IMG/VR virus record: IMGVR_UViG_3300042558_001390
Coordinates: 1-52,961 of that record
From: a virus
Direction: 5' to 3' (one strand)
Length of the DNA: 52,961 nt
In this document: positions 4,619 to 17,819 of the stretch, piece after piece
How the letters are laid out: every line of letters starts with the position of its first letter
Numbering within the stretch: position 1 is the first letter of the stretch
Notes under the pieces: generated by a model
Databases searched by the model: none
Seen by the model: the letters and a program-made list of their open reading frames with translations, nothing else
Told to the model about the DNA's origin: nothing
Program-made: the position numbers and the translations under genes

Positions 4619-5014
4619 ATGAAAAAAATAAAAGAGTTTATGTATGTTTTCTTTTTCTGCGTACCATTCGCAATTATAATTTATACGGGTTGTGTGATAG
4701 GAATATTAATAGTTAATTTAATCAAATTTATGGAAACAAAAAAAATTAATGACATCGAGGTAAAAGAAGAACCTAAAAACCCAAACAATCAAGAAGTTGC
4801 TGAAAGATTATATCCAGGAGTAGATAGACAAATTGATAGAATGTTATTTATTAATGGTGCTAAATGGCAACAAGAACAAGACAAGAATAAGTATAGTGAG
4901 GAAGATATGAAACAATTTGGAGATTGGTGTAGAAATGGACTTTTAAACACCGAGTATGGATTTGAAAAATTAGATGAACATTTAAAACAATGGAAACAAT
5001 TTAAAAACAAATAA
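4619..5014 (+). CDS. Membrane-anchored hypothetical protein
   Basis: A 131-residue protein with a long hydrophobic N-terminus (about residues 8-37, enough for one or two spans) and a soluble acidic C-terminal part. The phrase INGAKWQQEQ followed by YSEEDM...F..W resembles a short module often seen in hypothetical proteins of Bacteroidota phages. An internal ATG at residue 38 (METKKI) could yield a soluble form. Function unknown; it follows the structured gap and precedes the lipoprotein gene by 3 bases. Confidence 0.65.
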   Translation: MKKIKEFMYVFFFCVPFAIIIYTGCVIGILIVNLIKFMETKKINDIEVKEEPKNPNNQEVAERLYPGVDRQIDRMLFINGAKWQQEQDKNKYSEEDMKQFGDWCRNGLLNTEYGFEKLDEHLKQWKQFKNK

Positions 5015-5017
5015 GTT

Positions 5018-5281
5018 ATGAAAAAAGTATTATTACTATTATCATTTGTATTGCTATCGTGTAATCCAGATGACCCAGAACAACCAACGCCACCACAGAA
5101 TTGTGATTGTGATAAAGTGGTAGAGGTGGCAACATTCAATGTCGTTGGAACACCACAGAACCCTGCAATTAACTATTATTCTGTATATACAACAATCAAT
5201 GTATGTACACAGATTCAAAGACAGAAGAACTTTACAACAACGGTGTCAAGTCAGTCGCCACAATTAGGTCAGTGTAGGTAA
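5018..5281 (+). CDS. Small surface lipoprotein
   Basis: An 87-residue protein with a classical lipoprotein signal: MKK, a Leu-rich core, and LLSC with Cys15 as the lipid site. After the cysteine comes NPDDPEQPTPP, an acidic stretch like the lipoprotein export signal that sends Bacteroidota lipoproteins to the cell surface. The mature part is short and contains Cys-Asp-Cys and polar beta-type sequence. Phage lipoproteins often block the receptor and exclude superinfecting phages; that role is inferred from the family pattern. The stop shares its last base with the next ATG. Confidence 0.75.
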   Translation: MKKVLLLLSFVLLSCNPDDPEQPTPPQNCDCDKVVEVATFNVVGTPQNPAINYYSVYTTINVCTQIQRQKNFTTTVSSQSPQLGQCR

Positions 5282-5400
5282 TGGATACGTGGAACAACCC
5301 TCCGGAAGAGAAAGAGAACGAGTGCAATTATTGTGGAGAGCTTTGTGATGGACGTTATTGCTCAACAGATTGTAAGAAAGGATATGAGTCAGACAACTAA
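5281..5400 (+). CDS. Small Cys-rich (zinc-ribbon-like) protein
   Basis: A 39-residue ORF starting on the last base of the preceding stop (TAATG). It has five cysteines: CNYC (15, 18), then Cys22, Cys27 and Cys31, spaced as in small zinc-binding ribbons. A protein start typical of short phage Zn ribbons (ENECNYCGE) supports it. It overlaps the HNH gene by 17 bases and may be co-translated with it. Confidence 0.55.
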   Translation: MDTWNNPPEEKENECNYCGELCDGRYCSTDCKKGYESDN

Positions 5401-5791
5401 CAAAGGTAGTTTTAAAAAAGGACACACCCCTTGGAATTCGGGGCTTAAAGGTATCAGGCTTAGCCCCGCTACTGAGTTCAAGACAGGAGAAAATGTAGGA
5501 GATAAACACCCAAGTTGGAGAGGTGGAGAGCAAAAGTTTACAAAAGATTGCGTATATTTATACGCAGGTACAAACAAGAGAATTCGCAGACCTAAAAAGG
5601 TTTATGAAGACGCTTATGGACCTATACCAAAGGGGTGGATATTGTATCACTTAGACGGAGATAGATACAATGATGACTTGGATAACTTAATTGCAATCCC
5701 TCGTGCGGTACTTGTAAAAATAAACGCAGGAAGAATGAACGCAAACTATCATGAGATAAGTATTGCGGTTGAACAATTTAAAAACAAATAA
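5384..5791 (+). CDS. HNH endonuclease with NUMOD3-like N-terminus
   Basis: A 135-residue protein. The N-terminus FKKGHTPWNSGLKG (10-23) matches the NUMOD3 DNA-binding motif found in homing endonucleases. The C-terminal core KGWILYHLDGDRYNDDLDNL contains the HNH_3 pattern with His89, Asp91, Asn96 and Asn101. I chose ATG 5384; a longer GTG-started frame from 5333 would overlap the Cys-rich gene by 68 bases. It is free-standing, with no intron seen around it, and probably cuts competing phage DNA or promotes its own spread. Confidence 0.8.
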   Translation: MSQTTNKGSFKKGHTPWNSGLKGIRLSPATEFKTGENVGDKHPSWRGGEQKFTKDCVYLYAGTNKRIRRPKKVYEDAYGPIPKGWILYHLDGDRYNDDLDNLIAIPRAVLVKINAGRMNANYHEISIAVEQFKNK

Positions 5792-6971: not shown

Positions 6972-7622
6972 ATGGAAAAAACGAAATCAACATTCGATGT
7001 ATTGTCGGCTATTAATCTTAGCGACAAAGTAGAAAAGAAAAGCAACCTTACTTACCTATCTTGGGCTTGGGCGTGGGCAGAAGTGAAGAAAGAATATCCT
7101 GATGCTACTTATGAGGTAAAAGGAGACCCTATTACTCAAAAACCATACTTCTATGATGAGAACCTTGGATATATGGTAATGACAGAGGTTACTATTAAAG
7201 AAGAAACTTTAGAGATGTGGCTTCCTGTTATGGACGGTGCTAATAAAGCTATGCTATCTACACCATACACTTACAAAACAAAATTCGGAGAGAAGTCAGT
7301 TGAAGCAGCTACTATGTTTGACATCAACAAGACTCTTATGAGATGCTTAGTTAAGAACTTAGCTATGTTTGGTTTAGGTCTTTATATCTATGCAGGAGAG
7401 GACTTACCTGAGGCTGAGCCTACACCTGCACCTGCGCCAGTAAAAACTGCTTCTGATTTAGAAGATCTTAAAGTAGGCGATGCTAATTGGAATAAAGTAG
7501 TAGCTTATGTTACAGCAAACAAATCATTAGGTATTGAAGCTATTGGTAAACAACTTAATAGAAAATACAAGATGACACCTGCTGTTAAAAAAGAAATAAC
7601 TAACTTAGTATCAGCAAAATAA
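6972..7622 (+). CDS. DUF1071-family single-strand annealing protein
   Basis: A 216-residue protein with the DUF1071 hallmarks: LTYLSWAWAWAEVKKEYPDA (residues 26-45) and FDINKTLMRCLVKNLAMFGLG (about 117-137). These proteins are Sak3-type or Rad52-like annealing recombinases of phages. A flexible Pro/Ala linker (EPTPAPAPVK) leads to a short helical C-terminal domain. The gene overlaps the exonuclease start (TAATG), the usual recombinase-exonuclease pair. Confidence 0.8.
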   Translation: MEKTKSTFDVLSAINLSDKVEKKSNLTYLSWAWAWAEVKKEYPDATYEVKGDPITQKPYFYDENLGYMVMTEVTIKEETLEMWLPVMDGANKAMLSTPYTYKTKFGEKSVEAATMFDINKTLMRCLVKNLAMFGLGLYIYAGEDLPEAEPTPAPAPVKTASDLEDLKVGDANWNKVVAYVTANKSLGIEAIGKQLNRKYKMTPAVKKEITNLVSAK

Positions 7623-8368
7623 TGGCAGAAGTTAACGCACACGTTCTTGAGTTATTAAAAAATGACCAAGAATACTACGCAGGAGTTGGAAAGAACTACT
7701 TATCTAACTCAGACATTGGTACTCTTTTAAACAACCCAAAAGAGTTTGGAAAGCCTAGAGAAGACAATAAAGCTTTTATGGATGGAAGATACTTCCACCA
7801 ACTAATTCTTGAACCTGAGAAGGCTAAAGACTTATTGTATGTAGATGCAAGTACACGTACTACAAAAATATACAAAGACTTTTGCGAAGAAAACAACGTT
7901 CCGTTCTGTATGCTTCAGAAAGAAAAAGAAGAGATTGAGTCTTTGGTAGCTATTATCAATGGTAACATTGCTTTCTTTGAGGAGTTATATAAAGAAGGAA
8001 ATCAATATGAGATTCCTGCCGTAGCAGAGATCCAAGGTATGATGTGGAAAGGTAAGGCTGATATTGTAACTAATGATGCAATCATTGATCTAAAGACCAC
8101 CTCAGATATTGATAAGTTCAAATGGAACGCTAAGAAGTACAACTATGATTCTCAGTGTTATATCTATCAGATGTTATTCGGTAAGCCTTTAGTATTTTAT
8201 GTTATCGACAAGACCACAGGAGTGCTTGGTATCTTCAGACCAACAGATGATTTTGTGAAGTCAGGAGAGGACAAAGTAGCTAGAGCTATTGAGGTATTCA
8301 ACAAATACTTCGGAGCCAATCCTACAGATGATATAATGAACTATTACATTGACGAATACTTATATTAA
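7622..8368 (+). CDS. PD-(D/E)XK exonuclease (YqaJ/RecE-like)
   Basis: A 248-residue nuclease. Motifs in order: KAFMDGRYFHQLIL with His59, KGKADIV with Asp147, IIDLKTT with Asp156 and Lys158, and a Gln178-containing helix (DSQCYIYQ), as in lambda-exonuclease/RecE-type enzymes (DUF3799 or PDDEXK_1). It resects double-stranded ends so that the adjacent DUF1071 protein can anneal strands. It starts on the A of the preceding TAA. Confidence 0.82.
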   Translation: MAEVNAHVLELLKNDQEYYAGVGKNYLSNSDIGTLLNNPKEFGKPREDNKAFMDGRYFHQLILEPEKAKDLLYVDASTRTTKIYKDFCEENNVPFCMLQKEKEEIESLVAIINGNIAFFEELYKEGNQYEIPAVAEIQGMMWKGKADIVTNDAIIDLKTTSDIDKFKWNAKKYNYDSQCYIYQMLFGKPLVFYVIDKTTGVLGIFRPTDDFVKSGEDKVARAIEVFNKYFGANPTDDIMNYYIDEYLY

Positions 8369-15011: not shown

Positions 15012-15292
15012 GAAACAAATTAGCAGGGAAGCACCCCTCTTATGACAAGTTAGGTATGTCAGAAGAAAGAAAGAAAAAGAAGTTAGCTTACGATAAGAAA
15101 TATCAAGCTACTGAGGAAAGAAAAAACTACAGAGTTGAGCTTAACAAAGCTAACAGAGAGGCTGGGACTTATGGTAAAATGACAGCTATGGGTAAAGATC
15201 GTAGTCATAAAAAAGATGGTTCAATGACTTTAGAAGATAAAAGTAAAAATCGTAGCAGAAATGGCGCAAACAAAAAGTCAACTAAAAAATGA
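15008..15292 (+). CDS. Very basic hypothetical protein
   Basis: A 94-residue protein with about one third Lys or Arg, starting MRNKLAGKHPSYDKLGMSEE and ending KKSTKK. Similar lysine-rich proteins with AGKHPSYDKLGMSEER starts occur in other phages, with unknown role. Nucleic-acid binding is likely from charge alone. It overlaps the next gene by ATGA. Confidence 0.6.
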   Translation: MRNKLAGKHPSYDKLGMSEERKKKKLAYDKKYQATEERKNYRVELNKANREAGTYGKMTAMGKDRSHKKDGSMTLEDKSKNRSRNGANKKSTKK

Positions 15293-15594
15293 TAAAGTGT
15301 GTTTGTATAAACGATAAAGATAAACCTTCAAAAATACCTCAGCATAAATGGTTAGAAGAAGGCAAGGAATACACGTTAGCTTTTACTATGACTGTACTTC
15401 CTCAGAAGCAATTAGCTTTTCAACTCAATGAAATCGACCTTGATGATAGTTGCTCTCCCTACACGTGGTTCCTGGCGAACCGATTTGCGTTCAAAGAAGA
15501 GAACCTCGAAAGACTTGTTGAGTTTATTAAGGATTGCAATAAAATTAATTTTTCAGTGAAAGAGTTGATGAAGGAAACAAATATAAACGTATAA
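15289..15594 (+). CDS. Hypothetical protein ending inside an attC-like box
   Basis: A 101-residue protein (MIKCVCINDKDKPSKIPQHK, then KEYTLAF...) of a type seen in Bacteroidota phages, without known function. Its start overlaps the preceding phage gene by ATGA, so it belongs to the phage operon. Its stop codon TAA (15592-15594) lies within the TAAC box of the first attC-like palindrome. The cassette array therefore starts exactly at the end of this gene. Confidence 0.7.
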   Translation: MIKCVCINDKDKPSKIPQHKWLEEGKEYTLAFTMTVLPQKQLAFQLNEIDLDDSCSPYTWFLANRFAFKEENLERLVEFIKDCNKINFSVKELMKETNINV

Positions 15595-15719
15595 CGTTTA
15601 CGGCTTTGCGAAGAAGCCGATTTTGGAAAACAAATATTCAATTAACAACTAAAGATAAATAGAAATGAAAAGATTAAAATTAGCACTAAAGCGGCTTTTT
15701 TGCAAAACTGATGTTAGCG
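15589..15719 (+). repeat. attC-like site 1 (131 bases)
   Basis: R'' box GTATAAC (15589-15595) and R' core GTTA (15713-15716). Arm 15603-15623 pairs with 15688-15708: GCTTTGCGAAGAAGCCG against GTTTTGCAAAAAAGCCG when the second is reverse-complemented, differing only by G-T wobbles and one C-A mismatch. The 60-base spacer is longer than in the other sites. A local hairpin CGGCTT/AAGCCG (15601-15606 with 15614-15619) lies within the left arm. Confidence 0.55.
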
Positions 15720-15874
15720 GCAGTTTTTCTATCGGCGAGATGGGTGAAGATAGATTTGCACCTGTTCTAAAAGATGGAAAAGAAACTAACTGCCGAATAT
15801 ACTTATGGGATGCAGAAGATGTCAAAAGGTTACAAGCTATCGGTGATGAGATACATCGTCAAAATTGCCGCTAA
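15665..15874 (+). CDS. Hypothetical protein of cassette A
   Basis: The ORF encodes 69 residues from ATG 15665, or 44 from ATG 15740. The long start lies in the spacer of attC-like site 1, outside the proposed cassette (15714 on); the short start is fully inside it. The long form begins MKRLKLALKRLFCKTDVSG, which looks like a normal start preceded by an A-rich leader, so I list it, but the short form MGEDRFAPVLKDG suits a mobile cassette better. The stop TAA lies inside the next TAAC box. No known family. Confidence 0.45.
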   Translation: MKRLKLALKRLFCKTDVSGSFSIGEMGEDRFAPVLKDGKETNCRIYLWDAEDVKRLQAIGDEIHRQNCR

Positions 15875-15945
15875 CGTTTGTCGCTTGTACTAGGCGGCTA
15901 TGCGGTTGCGTATATTCTGCCGCTTAGTACAAACGATTGTTACCT
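15869..15945 (+). repeat. attC-like site 2 (77 bases)
   Basis: R'' CGCTAAC (15869-15875), R' GTTACCT (15939-15945). Arm GCTTGTACTAGGCGGC (15883-15898) pairs with GCCGCTTAGTACAAAC (15919-15934) in 14 of 16 positions, the others being one C-A mismatch and one G-T wobble. The loop is 20 bases. Unpaired bases GTTTGTC and GATT separate the R and L boxes, as in attC sites. Confidence 0.65.
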
Positions 15946-15993
15946 GCTGTTTATTTTTTTTGTAAATATTTTAATATTTTTCTATAAAATGTA

Positions 15994-16023
15994 TTGTTTA
16001 TATAAATATTAGTTGTATATTTA
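15994..16023 (+). promoter_or_regulatory. Bacteroidota promoter inside cassette B
   Basis: TTG at 15994-15996, a 19-base spacer, and TATATTTA at 16016-16023 match the Bacteroidota consensus TTG-N19-TAnnTTTG except for the last base. It lies 38 bases before the first ORF of cassette B, so this cassette can be expressed on its own. Confidence 0.55.
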
Positions 16024-16061
16024 CACCATGGAAATAATAACAACCCTAAAAAATAGAAATT

Positions 16062-16250
16062 ATGGCAATTCAATTCTACATTATCAAAGAAAACGAAATA
16101 GGCGAAGATGTAAAACAAATAGTTGCTCCAGAGCCATCTGAATTAAAAGTAGGCTTGTCAAATCAAAAATGGATAGCAAAAGGAATAGTTTCAATGGTAA
16201 AACCACTAAGAACTTCAACCCTATATTACGAAACAATATAGGGGTTTGAA
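16062..16250 (+). CDS. Hypothetical protein, first ORF of cassette B
   Basis: A 62-residue ORF (MAIQFYIIKENEIGEDVKQI) after the cassette promoter, with the leader aaaATAGAAATTATGG. The protein is mixed beta/helix with no recognised domain. Its last codons form a hairpin (16218-16248), so the 3' end of the gene may be structured in mRNA. Confidence 0.5.
16218..16248 (+). other. Inverted repeat at the end of the first cassette B ORF
   Basis: AACCCTATATT (16218-16228) pairs with AATATAGGGGTT (16236-16247) with one bulged G and a 7-base loop. No T-run follows, so a Rho-independent terminator is unlikely; it may slow readthrough to the downstream ORFs or stabilise the mRNA. Confidence 0.4.
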
Positions 16251-16349
16251 TCGATACAAAAATAAATCAATTTAACCAATGTTTTCAAGGCTTTACAAGG
16301 TATTTTTTAATATTTTTTTTAAGTTTTGGAGCGTTAAAAAAACAAAAAA

Positions 16350-16544
16350 ATGGAAGATATTTTAGAATACTTGCTTTACAATGAAGAATTAACATTAAGA
16401 AATGAAAACAATATGAGAGAGGTTAGTATGTCTTTAAATTTAGACGATGGATGGTGTGTTTATGCCAATGGTGATAGTATGAACCCTATTTTAGAATCAT
16501 CAAATAAAGATGCTATTTTGGATTGTATGAATTTTGAATGTTAA
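16350..16544 (+). CDS. Hypothetical protein, second ORF of cassette B
   Basis: A 64-residue acidic ORF (MEDILEYLLYNEELTLRNEN) preceded by 99 bases of A/T-rich gap. It has no recognised domain. A 4-base gap separates it from the third ORF, so the two are probably co-expressed, as small pairs such as toxin-antitoxin genes are; no family supports that here. Confidence 0.5.
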   Translation: MEDILEYLLYNEELTLRNENNMREVSMSLNLDDGWCVYANGDSMNPILESSNKDAILDCMNFEC

Positions 16545-16548
16545 TATT

Positions 16549-16719
16549 ATGCAAAGACAAAGTATAATAATACTAACCAAACCACTTAACGAGCCAATAG
16601 CAAGGGGTAATTTTAAAAAGCTATGTGAGGAGTTTAATTTTCCTTATCATAGCTTAAAGATGCTAAAATTCCCAATCACTTACAAAGATTCGGTTATTTA
16701 TAAAGTTGAGTTTAAATAG
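16549..16719 (+). CDS. Hypothetical protein, third ORF of cassette B
   Basis: A 56-residue basic ORF (MQRQSIIILTKPLNEPIARG), start chosen as the ATG after the previous stop rather than the in-frame ATG 15 bases earlier inside that gene. It has a beta-strand start and a helix with KKLCEEFNFPYHSLK. Its stop TAG (16717-16719) overlaps the inverted AGCAGGTAAC end of the cassette. Confidence 0.5.
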   Translation: MQRQSIIILTKPLNEPIARGNFKKLCEEFNFPYHSLKMLKFPITYKDSVIYKVEFK

Positions 16720-16720
16720 C

Positions 16721-16798
16721 AGGTAACGTTTCGGTGCTTGTAGATGCCAGCCTACACGCATTTTATTTTCGGCTGGTATTTACAAACACCTGTTATAA
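16721..16798 (+). repeat. attC-like site 3 (78 bases)
   Basis: R'' AGGTAAC (16721-16727), R' GTTATAA (16792-16798). The 20-base arm 16733-16752 (GGTGCTTGTAGATGCCAGCC) pairs with 16771-16790 in 17 of 20 positions; the exceptions are one C-A mismatch at the same relative place as in sites 1 and 2, and two G-T wobbles. The loop is 18 bases. Confidence 0.65.
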
Positions 16799-16827
16799 GA
16801 AGTAGCGGGTAATTAAAACTAAATATT

Positions 16828-17043
16828 ATGAAATTAAAAGAAGATTTTGAAAAAGTATTAAAAAATTCTAAACCTCATTTTTTAAAATTTGACACAAATG
16901 ATTGTATAGAAATATGCGATAATTTTGCCATTAAATTTGCAGAATGGTTAGTAATTCAATATAATGAAGATATAATGTATACCGAATATAACACTAAAGA
17001 GTTATTAGAAATATTTAAAAAATCTTATAAAAACAATTCGTAG
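16828..17043 (+). CDS. Hypothetical protein of cassette C
   Basis: A 71-residue acidic helical protein (MKLKEDFEKVLKNSKPHFLK) that occupies nearly all of cassette C. The two Cys and central aromatic residues give no family. The stop TAG (17041-17043) lies at the beginning of the cassette's inverted end. Confidence 0.6.
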   Translation: MKLKEDFEKVLKNSKPHFLKFDTNDCIEICDNFAIKFAEWLVIQYNEDIMYTEYNTKELLEIFKKSYKNNS

Positions 17044-17050
17044 CTATTTC

Positions 17051-17126
17051 TTATAACTGCCGTATTGTTGCAGTTTTAAAAGTAAATAATCAAGTAATAT
17101 AAAATTGCTACAATACTTAGTTATGA
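17051..17126 (+). repeat. attC-like site 4 (76 bases)
   Basis: R'' TTATAAC (17051-17057), R' GTTATGA (17120-17126). Arm GTATTGTTGCAGTTTT (17062-17077) pairs with AAAATTGCTACAATAC (17101-17116) in 14 of 16 positions. The R' box contains the ATG of the following VRR-NUC gene, so the array ends exactly at that gene's start. Confidence 0.6.
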
Positions 17127-17365
17127 AGGAAAGTCAAATACAATCAAAGAAAATTAAAGAGCTTGAAGCCAAGGGATACTATGTTATTAAGTTAATAAAT
17201 ACAAACAAGCCTGGAATCCCCGACCTTATTGCTATACCTAAAGGGTCAGATGTTCTTTTTATAGAAGTGAAAGGCCCGAAAGGAAAAACTTCTCCTTTGC
17301 AAGATTGGAGAATGGAAGAATTAAAACAACACAAATTAAAAGTAGAAATACATAAACCACTTTAA
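17123..17365 (+). CDS. VRR-NUC domain nuclease
   Basis: An 80-residue minimal VRR-NUC nuclease of the PD-(D/E)XK fold: GIPDLIAIPKG gives Asp34, VLFIEVKGPKG gives Glu48 and Lys50, and SPLQDWR gives Gln60. Phage members are thought to resolve branched DNA. I prefer ATG 17123, in the R' box of attC-like site 4; an in-frame TTG at 17105 lies in the palindrome arm. It ends 4 bases before the DnaA-like gene. Confidence 0.8.
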   Translation: MKESQIQSKKIKELEAKGYYVIKLINTNKPGIPDLIAIPKGSDVLFIEVKGPKGKTSPLQDWRMEELKQHKLKVEIHKPL

Positions 17366-17369
17366 TCAA

Positions 17370-17819
17370 ATGGATTCACTCAAGAACATAATAAACTTAG
17401 TATTTTTTGTTAATATAGATGACCAAACTCGAAAAAGAAATATAGTAGATGCAAGAAGAGCATACGCTAAAATACTTAAAGATGCCGGATTTTCGTATCA
17501 GCATATAGGAGGTAGCATAAAAAAAGACCACGCAACTATTATTCACTATGTAAAATCTATAGATTCTCTACTGAAATATGATCCTATATTTGAAAAAAAA
17601 TTTATATCAGCTAAGAAAAATTTCTTAGAAGAAAACAAACACTTAATGTTAAACTCAAAAGAGGACATTTATGCTATTGCAATTAGCTTGGAGAATAGAC
17701 TTAACGAATTGATTTCTAAAAGAAAAAAAATAGACAGTCTTTTAGATGAGTATGAAAAAGAAAATAAAGGAGGGGTTGATTTTTGCAGAAAAGTAATATT
17801 GCCCTTGTTTGATTCTTAA
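17370..17819 (+). CDS. DnaA domain IV-like protein
   Basis: A 149-residue protein with TRKRNIVDARRAYAKILKDA and HIGGSIKKDHATIIHYVKSI, which follow DnaA domain IV closely, including the basic loop and the DHxT helix that reads DnaA boxes. No AAA+ part is present. The C-terminal half is a charged helix, likely coiled coil. It may bind the phage origin or compete with host DnaA. It is the better preserved of the two such proteins. Confidence 0.75.
   Translation: MDSLKNIINLVFFVNIDDQTRKRNIVDARRAYAKILKDAGFSYQHIGGSIKKDHATIIHYVKSIDSLLKYDPIFEKKFISAKKNFLEENKHLMLNSKEDIYAIAISLENRLNELISKRKKIDSLLDEYEKENKGGVDFCRKVILPLFDS

Follow-up and report, generated by a model that had tools for sequence, protein, structure and literature searches.

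A 1.5 kb stretch between two phage genes in the IMG/VR virus record IMGVR_UViG_3300042558_001390 (positions 1 to 52,961, all 52,961 bp of which are referred to here as the window) was analyzed as a possible array of integron-type cassettes. A gene for a 101-aa protein lies on its left (15289..15594, plus strand) and a VRR_NUC nuclease gene on its right (17123..17365, plus strand; PF08774, E=5.9e-9), the latter listed as ORF (open reading frame) 17105-17365, with relatives that align from the ATG at 17123. The stretch between them holds imperfect palindromes and small ORFs, and an earlier note, made from the letters of the window, had read it as three integron-type cassettes inside a phage operon. 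We consider it probable that this is an orphan array (a cluster of attC sites lacking an integrase, CALIN) of three such cassettes, which would belong to an unrecognized integron family of Bacteroidota and would be moved in trans. The phage itself is a probable Bacteroidota phage.

Hairpins and paired ends in the window

Sites were sought with a home-made scanner that was blind to the coordinates of the earlier note and required AAC, two complementary arms and GTT within 50–150 bp. On the plus strand of the window it returned exactly the four palindromes described before and no others, against 0, 1, 0 and 1 sites in shuffled windows. Site 1 (15592..15716, AAC..GTT core 15593-15716, scanner score 16.8) is both the left boundary of the array and the 5' end of its first unit, and abuts the stop codon of the left flanking gene. 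It is followed by site 2 (15872..15942, core 15873-15942, score 19.3) and site 3 (16724..16795, core 16725-16795, score 19.3), all three being attC-like hairpins in minus attC orientation. Site 4 (17054..17123, core 17055-17123, same orientation) is a weak hairpin at the right boundary of the array, the position where an attI, and in other phages also a recombinase gene, would lie. The core and arms of the attC consensus (RYYYAAC..GTTRRRY) are present in all four sites, with the RYYY and RRRY flanks matching only partly, and a search of the sites against Rfam matched no family.

The sites were then scored with a covariance model (R1) trained on 34 chromosomal Bacteroidia sites only; an alignment of phage sites (A3) was kept out of the training, which makes the window an out-of-sample test. 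With E-values that are approximate, R1 recognized site 1 (96.9 bits, E=2.7e-18), site 3 (47.4 bits, E=6.1e-8) and site 2 (41.7 bits, E=9.4e-7), all on the minus strand, gave site 4 14.4 bits (E=0.48) and found no further significant match in the rest of the window. A search of the window for tyrosine recombinases (PF00589) was empty. The absence of IntI, the resemblance to a CALIN (at least two attC sites, no integrase nearby) and the expected match to Bacteroidota cassette repeats are thus borne out for sites 1–3, while the proposal that site 4 is also an attC did not pass the covariance check. Across 25 phage loci, R1 gave 190 matches, every one opposite in strand to the genes; three class 1 integrons gave 0 matches.

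By minimum-free-energy folding of single-stranded DNA, sites 2 (z −4.2/−4.4), 3 (z −2.8/−3.3) and 4 (z −2.9/−3.7) fold better than shuffled sequences (z −2.8 to −4.4 overall). The gene strand, which corresponds to the attC bottom strand, gives the more stable fold in all four window sites and in 309/374 phage sites, as does the equivalent bottom strand in 26/34 chromosomal and 8/9 class 1 sites.

In each of the three intervals the starting bases are complementary to the bases at the end in 14 of 15 positions: 15713-15727 pairs with 15861-15875, 15939-15953 with 16713-16727, and 16792-16806 with 17043-17057. The sole mismatch falls at position 11 in all three cassettes, with G at the start and T at the end. 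The complementarity reported earlier (14/15, 10/10 and 14/15) therefore stands and is in one case extended, and 226, 853 and 328 bp are confirmed as the GTT-to-GTT spacings, with small ORFs present in each interval.

Whole-unit exchange and the variable locus

In the phage collection, DNA similar to the array was found mainly in Flavobacterium phages, namely the Baltic 'Moomin' phages (lillamy, mumin, filifjonk and others) and the F. psychrophilum phages 6H, 2A and FPSV-D15; a hairpin 85% identical to site 3 is present in F. psychrophilum phages. Arrays in these two groups contain up to 14 tandem sites, with an end complementarity of mostly 12–14/15. Many array genes of the Moomin phages are annotated as DNA methyltransferases, for which protection from restriction would fit, and a conserved TAAC|TACAATATTACATG boundary is abutted by different cassettes in these phages.

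Flavobacterium phages that are nearly identical differ from one another in entire units. Of the 103 unique exchange breakpoints, 75 map to the 5' edge of a hairpin (in both sequences for 65, in one of them for 10), and the exchanged blocks typically begin with TAAC and finish with AACG or AACGTT. The mobile unit is therefore a hairpin with its downstream gene. The earlier note had proposed the opposite polarity, with a gene and its downstream hairpin as the unit; the R1 matches, which run opposite to the genes, likewise speak for the reversal, and the cut, which had been placed at the 3' G^TTA, would move to the 5' side of the hairpin.

The pairing of cassette ends was examined in 424 non-redundant sites and 307 cassette bodies. 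Hairpin arms pair far better with their own partner than with the partner of a different site (18.1 vs 7.2), a difference that is partly built in, as the scanner selects for pairing. The end arms are not used by the scanner, and here the mean is 11.4/15 with the own partner vs 7.3 with random partners. In the best 218 cassettes, end-arm positions 4–9 are 94–100% Watson-Crick paired across several different base pairs, position 11 is almost invariably G.T, and positions 12–14 are about 90% paired.

These two sets of results bear on a reading in which no site-specific system is active now and homologous or illegitimate phage mosaicism merely reuses conserved linker hairpins. Such mosaicism would account for a window phage without recombinase, for breakpoints off the site edges and for one exchange within a hairpin in the 6A/2A phages. 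It fits poorly with exchanged units that have only about TAACGTT in common at the edge, which is short for homologous recombination, with end arms that match each other within each unit, which requires a circularization-type pairing, and with the recombinase and attI found beside many arrays (see below), so that we regard it as improbable.

Two further observations concern single loci. A comparison of F. psychrophilum phages 6H and 2A (L004 5001-5118 vs L008 5001-5054) shows a chimeric hairpin, its left half matching window site 3 and its right half continuing as a different site, so some exchanges occur inside hairpins. In another locus (L019) one site and cassette pair occurs twice (4966-5737 and 7177-7948), about 2.2 kb apart, either as a tandem duplication or as an assembly artefact.

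When the 5'-edge rule is applied to the window, the array divides into three units on the plus strand. Unit 1 (15593..15872, 280 bp) consists of a hairpin followed by a gene (ORF 15665-15874, 69 aa); unit 2 (15873..16724, 852 bp) of a hairpin, a leader and ORFs 16062-16241 (59 aa), 16350-16544 (64 aa) and 16549-16719 (56 aa); and unit 3 (16725..17054, 330 bp) of a hairpin and ORF 16828-17043 (71 aa). No function was assigned to the window cassette ORFs tested against Pfam, PHROGs and PADLOC. The start codon of ORF 15665-15874 lies within the hairpin loop of site 1, and the site consequently encodes an N-terminal peptide, FCKTDVSGSF (window 15665-15725), that is common to different genes in other phages (L031-L034), with homology stopping just past the right arm. 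Unit 2 was also found in other viral contigs and in Moomin phages, in other neighbourhoods; in many viral contigs its leader (15940-16068) and last ORF (16549-16719) are kept and the DNA between them varies. The protein of this last ORF has relatives in 21 viral loci and in only 2 loci among 84,980 genomes, and cassette 2 therefore seems to circulate mainly in viruses.

Relatives of the window's own lineage were collected via its helicase. The two genes that flank the array, the left one adjoining the VRR_NUC gene in array-less relatives, are only 3–36 bp apart in L256, L259-L261, L276 and L281, and in further relatives they are adjacent with no site found between them. They are split by one site in L263 and by other cassettes in L255; in L255, site 4 has an almost identical counterpart, which is abutted by a different cassette. 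The array was therefore acquired by insertion and varies in content, and site 4 is the fixed right boundary of the locus, a weak hairpin and at most a putative attC. The next gene (17370..17819, plus strand) belongs to the fixed backbone and encodes a DnaA C-terminal-like helix-turn-helix domain (PF08299, E=3.1e-7; 30.8 bits, slightly below the Pfam cut-off of 31.5). Among relatives with at least 5 kb of downstream sequence, the recombinase described below was found in 0/69.

A static origin of the hairpins, as terminators or RNA regulatory elements between phage genes with an accidental likeness to attC, has in its favour that they sit between genes and that Rfam returned no contrary match. 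It conflicts with loci that are empty or carry other units in relatives, with end arms that covary over hundreds of cassettes, and with a model of chromosomal sites that recognizes three of the four hairpins. Static terminators and chance palindromes were discarded on the empty loci and the covarying end arms, and of all the alternatives considered this is the one we find hardest to credit. The same relatives speak against constant content at the locus, which had been named beforehand as an outcome contrary to the cassette reading. The proposal of integron-type cassettes in a phage operon without an integrase finds strong support in this variability, in the out-of-sample R1 matches and in the site-precise exchanges in near-identical phages.

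Recombinase, attI-like motif and chromosomal relatives

In four array-bearing viral contigs, the array is directly followed by a gene for a tyrosine recombinase of 265–277 aa. A protein search starting from these four recombinases yielded 116 viral loci, chosen without regard to arrays. Upstream of the recombinase, these loci contain 361 sites in 587 kb; downstream there are 4 in 766 kb, and shuffled DNA gave 4 in 1.44 Mb. Where at least 2.5 kb of upstream sequence was available, sites were present in 75/76 loci and end-linked pairs in 61/76. The recombinase with upstream sites also occurs in very large viral contigs of about 208–465 kb (L087, L089, L104, L121, L154 and L168), and the system may thus reach jumbo phages. 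Four other phage integrases (L048-L050 and L055), around which no sites were seen, are probably prophage integrases and were not considered further.

In 77/93 arrays, the complementary arm made it possible to locate where the last cassette ends. The motif TAYTATATRT (at most 2 mismatches) follows 59/77 of these last cassettes vs 0/370 other cassette ends, mostly 52–56 or 94–107 bp from the recombinase match. This conserved motif has the place and behaviour expected of an attI, and we refer to it as attI-like; the candidate attI of the L051 or L053 recombinase reads TAAC|TACTATATGTA. An attI at the 5' end of the phage arrays, sought from the start of the first cassette, was not seen, the attI-like motif lying at the 3' end, by the recombinase. 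The window holds no attI-like motif; motif and recombinase were seen in relatives.

The best NCBIfam match of the phage recombinase is XerA_Arch, at 173–191 bits vs a cut-off of 220, and it remains below the equivalog cut-offs of XerC (152–156 of 335) and XerD (150–156 of 330). The integron-integrase model gave 145–152 bits where tested vs a cut-off of 265. In the alignment, a segment between two conserved catalytic parts is found in IntI1 and Bacteroidia IntI and is missing from the phage and chromosomal recombinases. According to PMC9668308, which cites Messier and Roy 2001, this additional domain defines IntI and is required for integron recombination; its absence means that, despite the integron-like layout, the recombinase is not an IntI by that criterion. 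The earlier expectation of IntI as the partner of these sites is hence probably wrong, relatives encoding a compact Xer/XerA-like tyrosine recombinase instead. In a maximum-likelihood tree the phage recombinases form one clade (100/99), within which one genome-derived row (L185) is nested; this clade groups with chromosomal recombinases (99/96), apart from IntI (100/99) and from XerC/XerD.

The position in the tree is relevant for a possible role of the host. In phages that exploit the Xer system (IMEX, CTX-type), host XerC/XerD recombine folded phage sites. The same could be imagined here, as phages without recombinase keep diverse arrays and XerC/XerD-like genes are present in 5/5 genomes searched; with a dedicated recombinase, apart from XerC/XerD in the tree and consistently beside arrays and attI, we hold this to be very unlikely.

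Among 395 Bacteroidia genomes, 186 contain a homologue of the recombinase (E≤1e-60), often in frames of 350–440 aa, and 275 contain R1 sites (E≤1e-4), although just eight candidates were scored in each genome. In 20 larger chromosomal regions, all sites found are downstream of the recombinase, none being upstream, where little DNA was covered; three regions that end soon after the recombinase gene had no sites. Many chromosomal recombinase genes lie no more than a few hundred bases from the end of a contig, which would be expected of assemblies that break in the adjacent repeated sites. Long chromosomal arrays show an end pairing of mostly 11–14/15, and the start of cassette 1, where locatable, is mostly within about 120 bp past the recombinase match and is preceded by a CATATA-like stretch, a few nucleotides ahead of GTT, that is similar to the phage attI when the latter is read from the side of the recombinase. 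On one Bacteroidia chromosome (G217:C1 3,224,068-3,298,611), sites extend over some 75 kb beyond the recombinase, a superintegron-like arrangement.

The chromosomal survey also weighs on the possibility of an ordinary CALIN, with cassettes drawn from the host's classical integrons and moved by classical IntI, and with the compact recombinase doing something else. This would agree with the Polaribacter phage P12002L, whose attC2 recombines with IntI1 (PMC9892861) and which has one R1 site (E=0.002), and with the scanner also recovering class 1 attC sites, the core architecture being common to both systems. Classical IntI, however, exceeds the NCBIfam cut-off in only 1/395 Bacteroidia genomes (L043, G144:C40:3592-4530, 421.9 bits over TIGR02249), and no R1-family site was found in that genome. 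R1, moreover, does not match class 1 attC, and the compact recombinase, not IntI, adjoins the arrays. This explanation is unlikely, though the least so of those we set against an integron family with its own recombinase.

A putative integron family and its comparison with known systems

Taken as cassettes of such a family, the units of the window would have been inserted between two fixed early phage genes, each as an attC-like hairpin with one to three small genes after it. The recombinase would recognize the folded single-stranded hairpin (the attC bottom strand, here the gene strand) and exchange strands at the AAC/GTT core on its 5' side, which would excise circular cassettes and insert them at attI or at other attC sites. 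In our model, the window phage gains and loses cassettes when the recombinase is provided by a co-infecting phage, a prophage or a host integron; some phages encode it beside their own attI-like motif, and in many Bacteroidia chromosomes a longer homologue heads the array. The cassette genes are presumably transcribed from upstream in the phage operon, and the phage ORFs accordingly point toward attI, the reverse of canonical integrons. That the compact recombinase acts on these sites, with this strand chemistry and supplied in trans, is likely in our judgement.

Several points weigh against this reading. Recombination is deduced from sequence, no event having been observed, and because the window and the complete Moomin phages (whole records searched) lack a recombinase, the supply in trans is assumed. 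Site 1 folds no better than shuffled sequences by minimum free energy (z −0.2 to −0.3), the expected folding thus holding for the other three sites only; its loop is long and A+T-rich. Site 4 is below R1 recognition, 6/103 breakpoints lie at the hairpin 3' edge and 22/103 at neither edge, and, since the scanner also picked the training sites of R1, scanner and model are not fully independent methods.

Beyond the window, we lean toward, with less assurance than for the array itself, a second, IntI-independent class of integrons that is pervasive in Bacteroidota and their phages, with a compact Xer/XerA-like recombinase that lacks the IntI additional domain, its own attC family, an attI (CATATA, a few nucleotides ahead of GTT), and complete units as well as orphan arrays that exchange accessory genes such as methyltransferases. 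If true, integron function evolved with, or survives without, the IntI additional domain; most of the Bacteroidia genomes sampled hold attC-like sites that IntI-based surveys would likely miss; and phages have a concrete way of acquiring, losing and sharing small accessory genes in the form of cassettes. Very few integrons have been reported in Bacteroidetes (PMC9024848), the Moomin phage paper does not mention integrons, and no integron family with such a recombinase was found in the open-access literature, outside of which preprints and most subscription papers lie. Relative to the literature searched, the recombinase, the attI and the extent of the system seem new.

Orphan cassette arrays in virulent phages are known, for example in P12002L (Qi et al. 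2023, PMC9892861), in a text that names no recombinase other than IntI and does not mention Flavobacterium or Bacteroidetes. The arrays described here have in common with P12002L-type CALINs the attC-like cassettes, the lack of an integrase, methyltransferases among the cassettes and the R1 site noted above; unlike them, the Flavobacterium phage arrays are long and common, and relatives encode a non-IntI recombinase and an attI. With XerA, XerC and XerD the phage recombinase shares its best family scores and compact length, but it forms its own clade with the chromosomal homologues and is linked to cassette arrays. The Bacteroidia chromosomal array inspected in detail, in which the recombinase reads toward the array and the genes away from it, is arranged as in Treponema, where intI is read toward attI and treated as a true IntI (PMC3607928); unlike Treponema intI, the Bacteroidia enzyme is not an IntI by domain and score tests. 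Class 1 and other IntI integrons share with the present arrays the AAC..GTT core, the imperfect hairpin at the attI-distal end of each cassette, the complementary cassette ends and an attI beside a tyrosine recombinase, and, as with IntI1, the phage recombinase is transcribed away from the array. They differ from them in that pairing of the end arms studied here extends over about 14 bp and has a fixed G.T at position 11, the recombinase is without the additional domain, the phage cassette ORFs read toward attI, and the attC is not at the 3' end of the gene.

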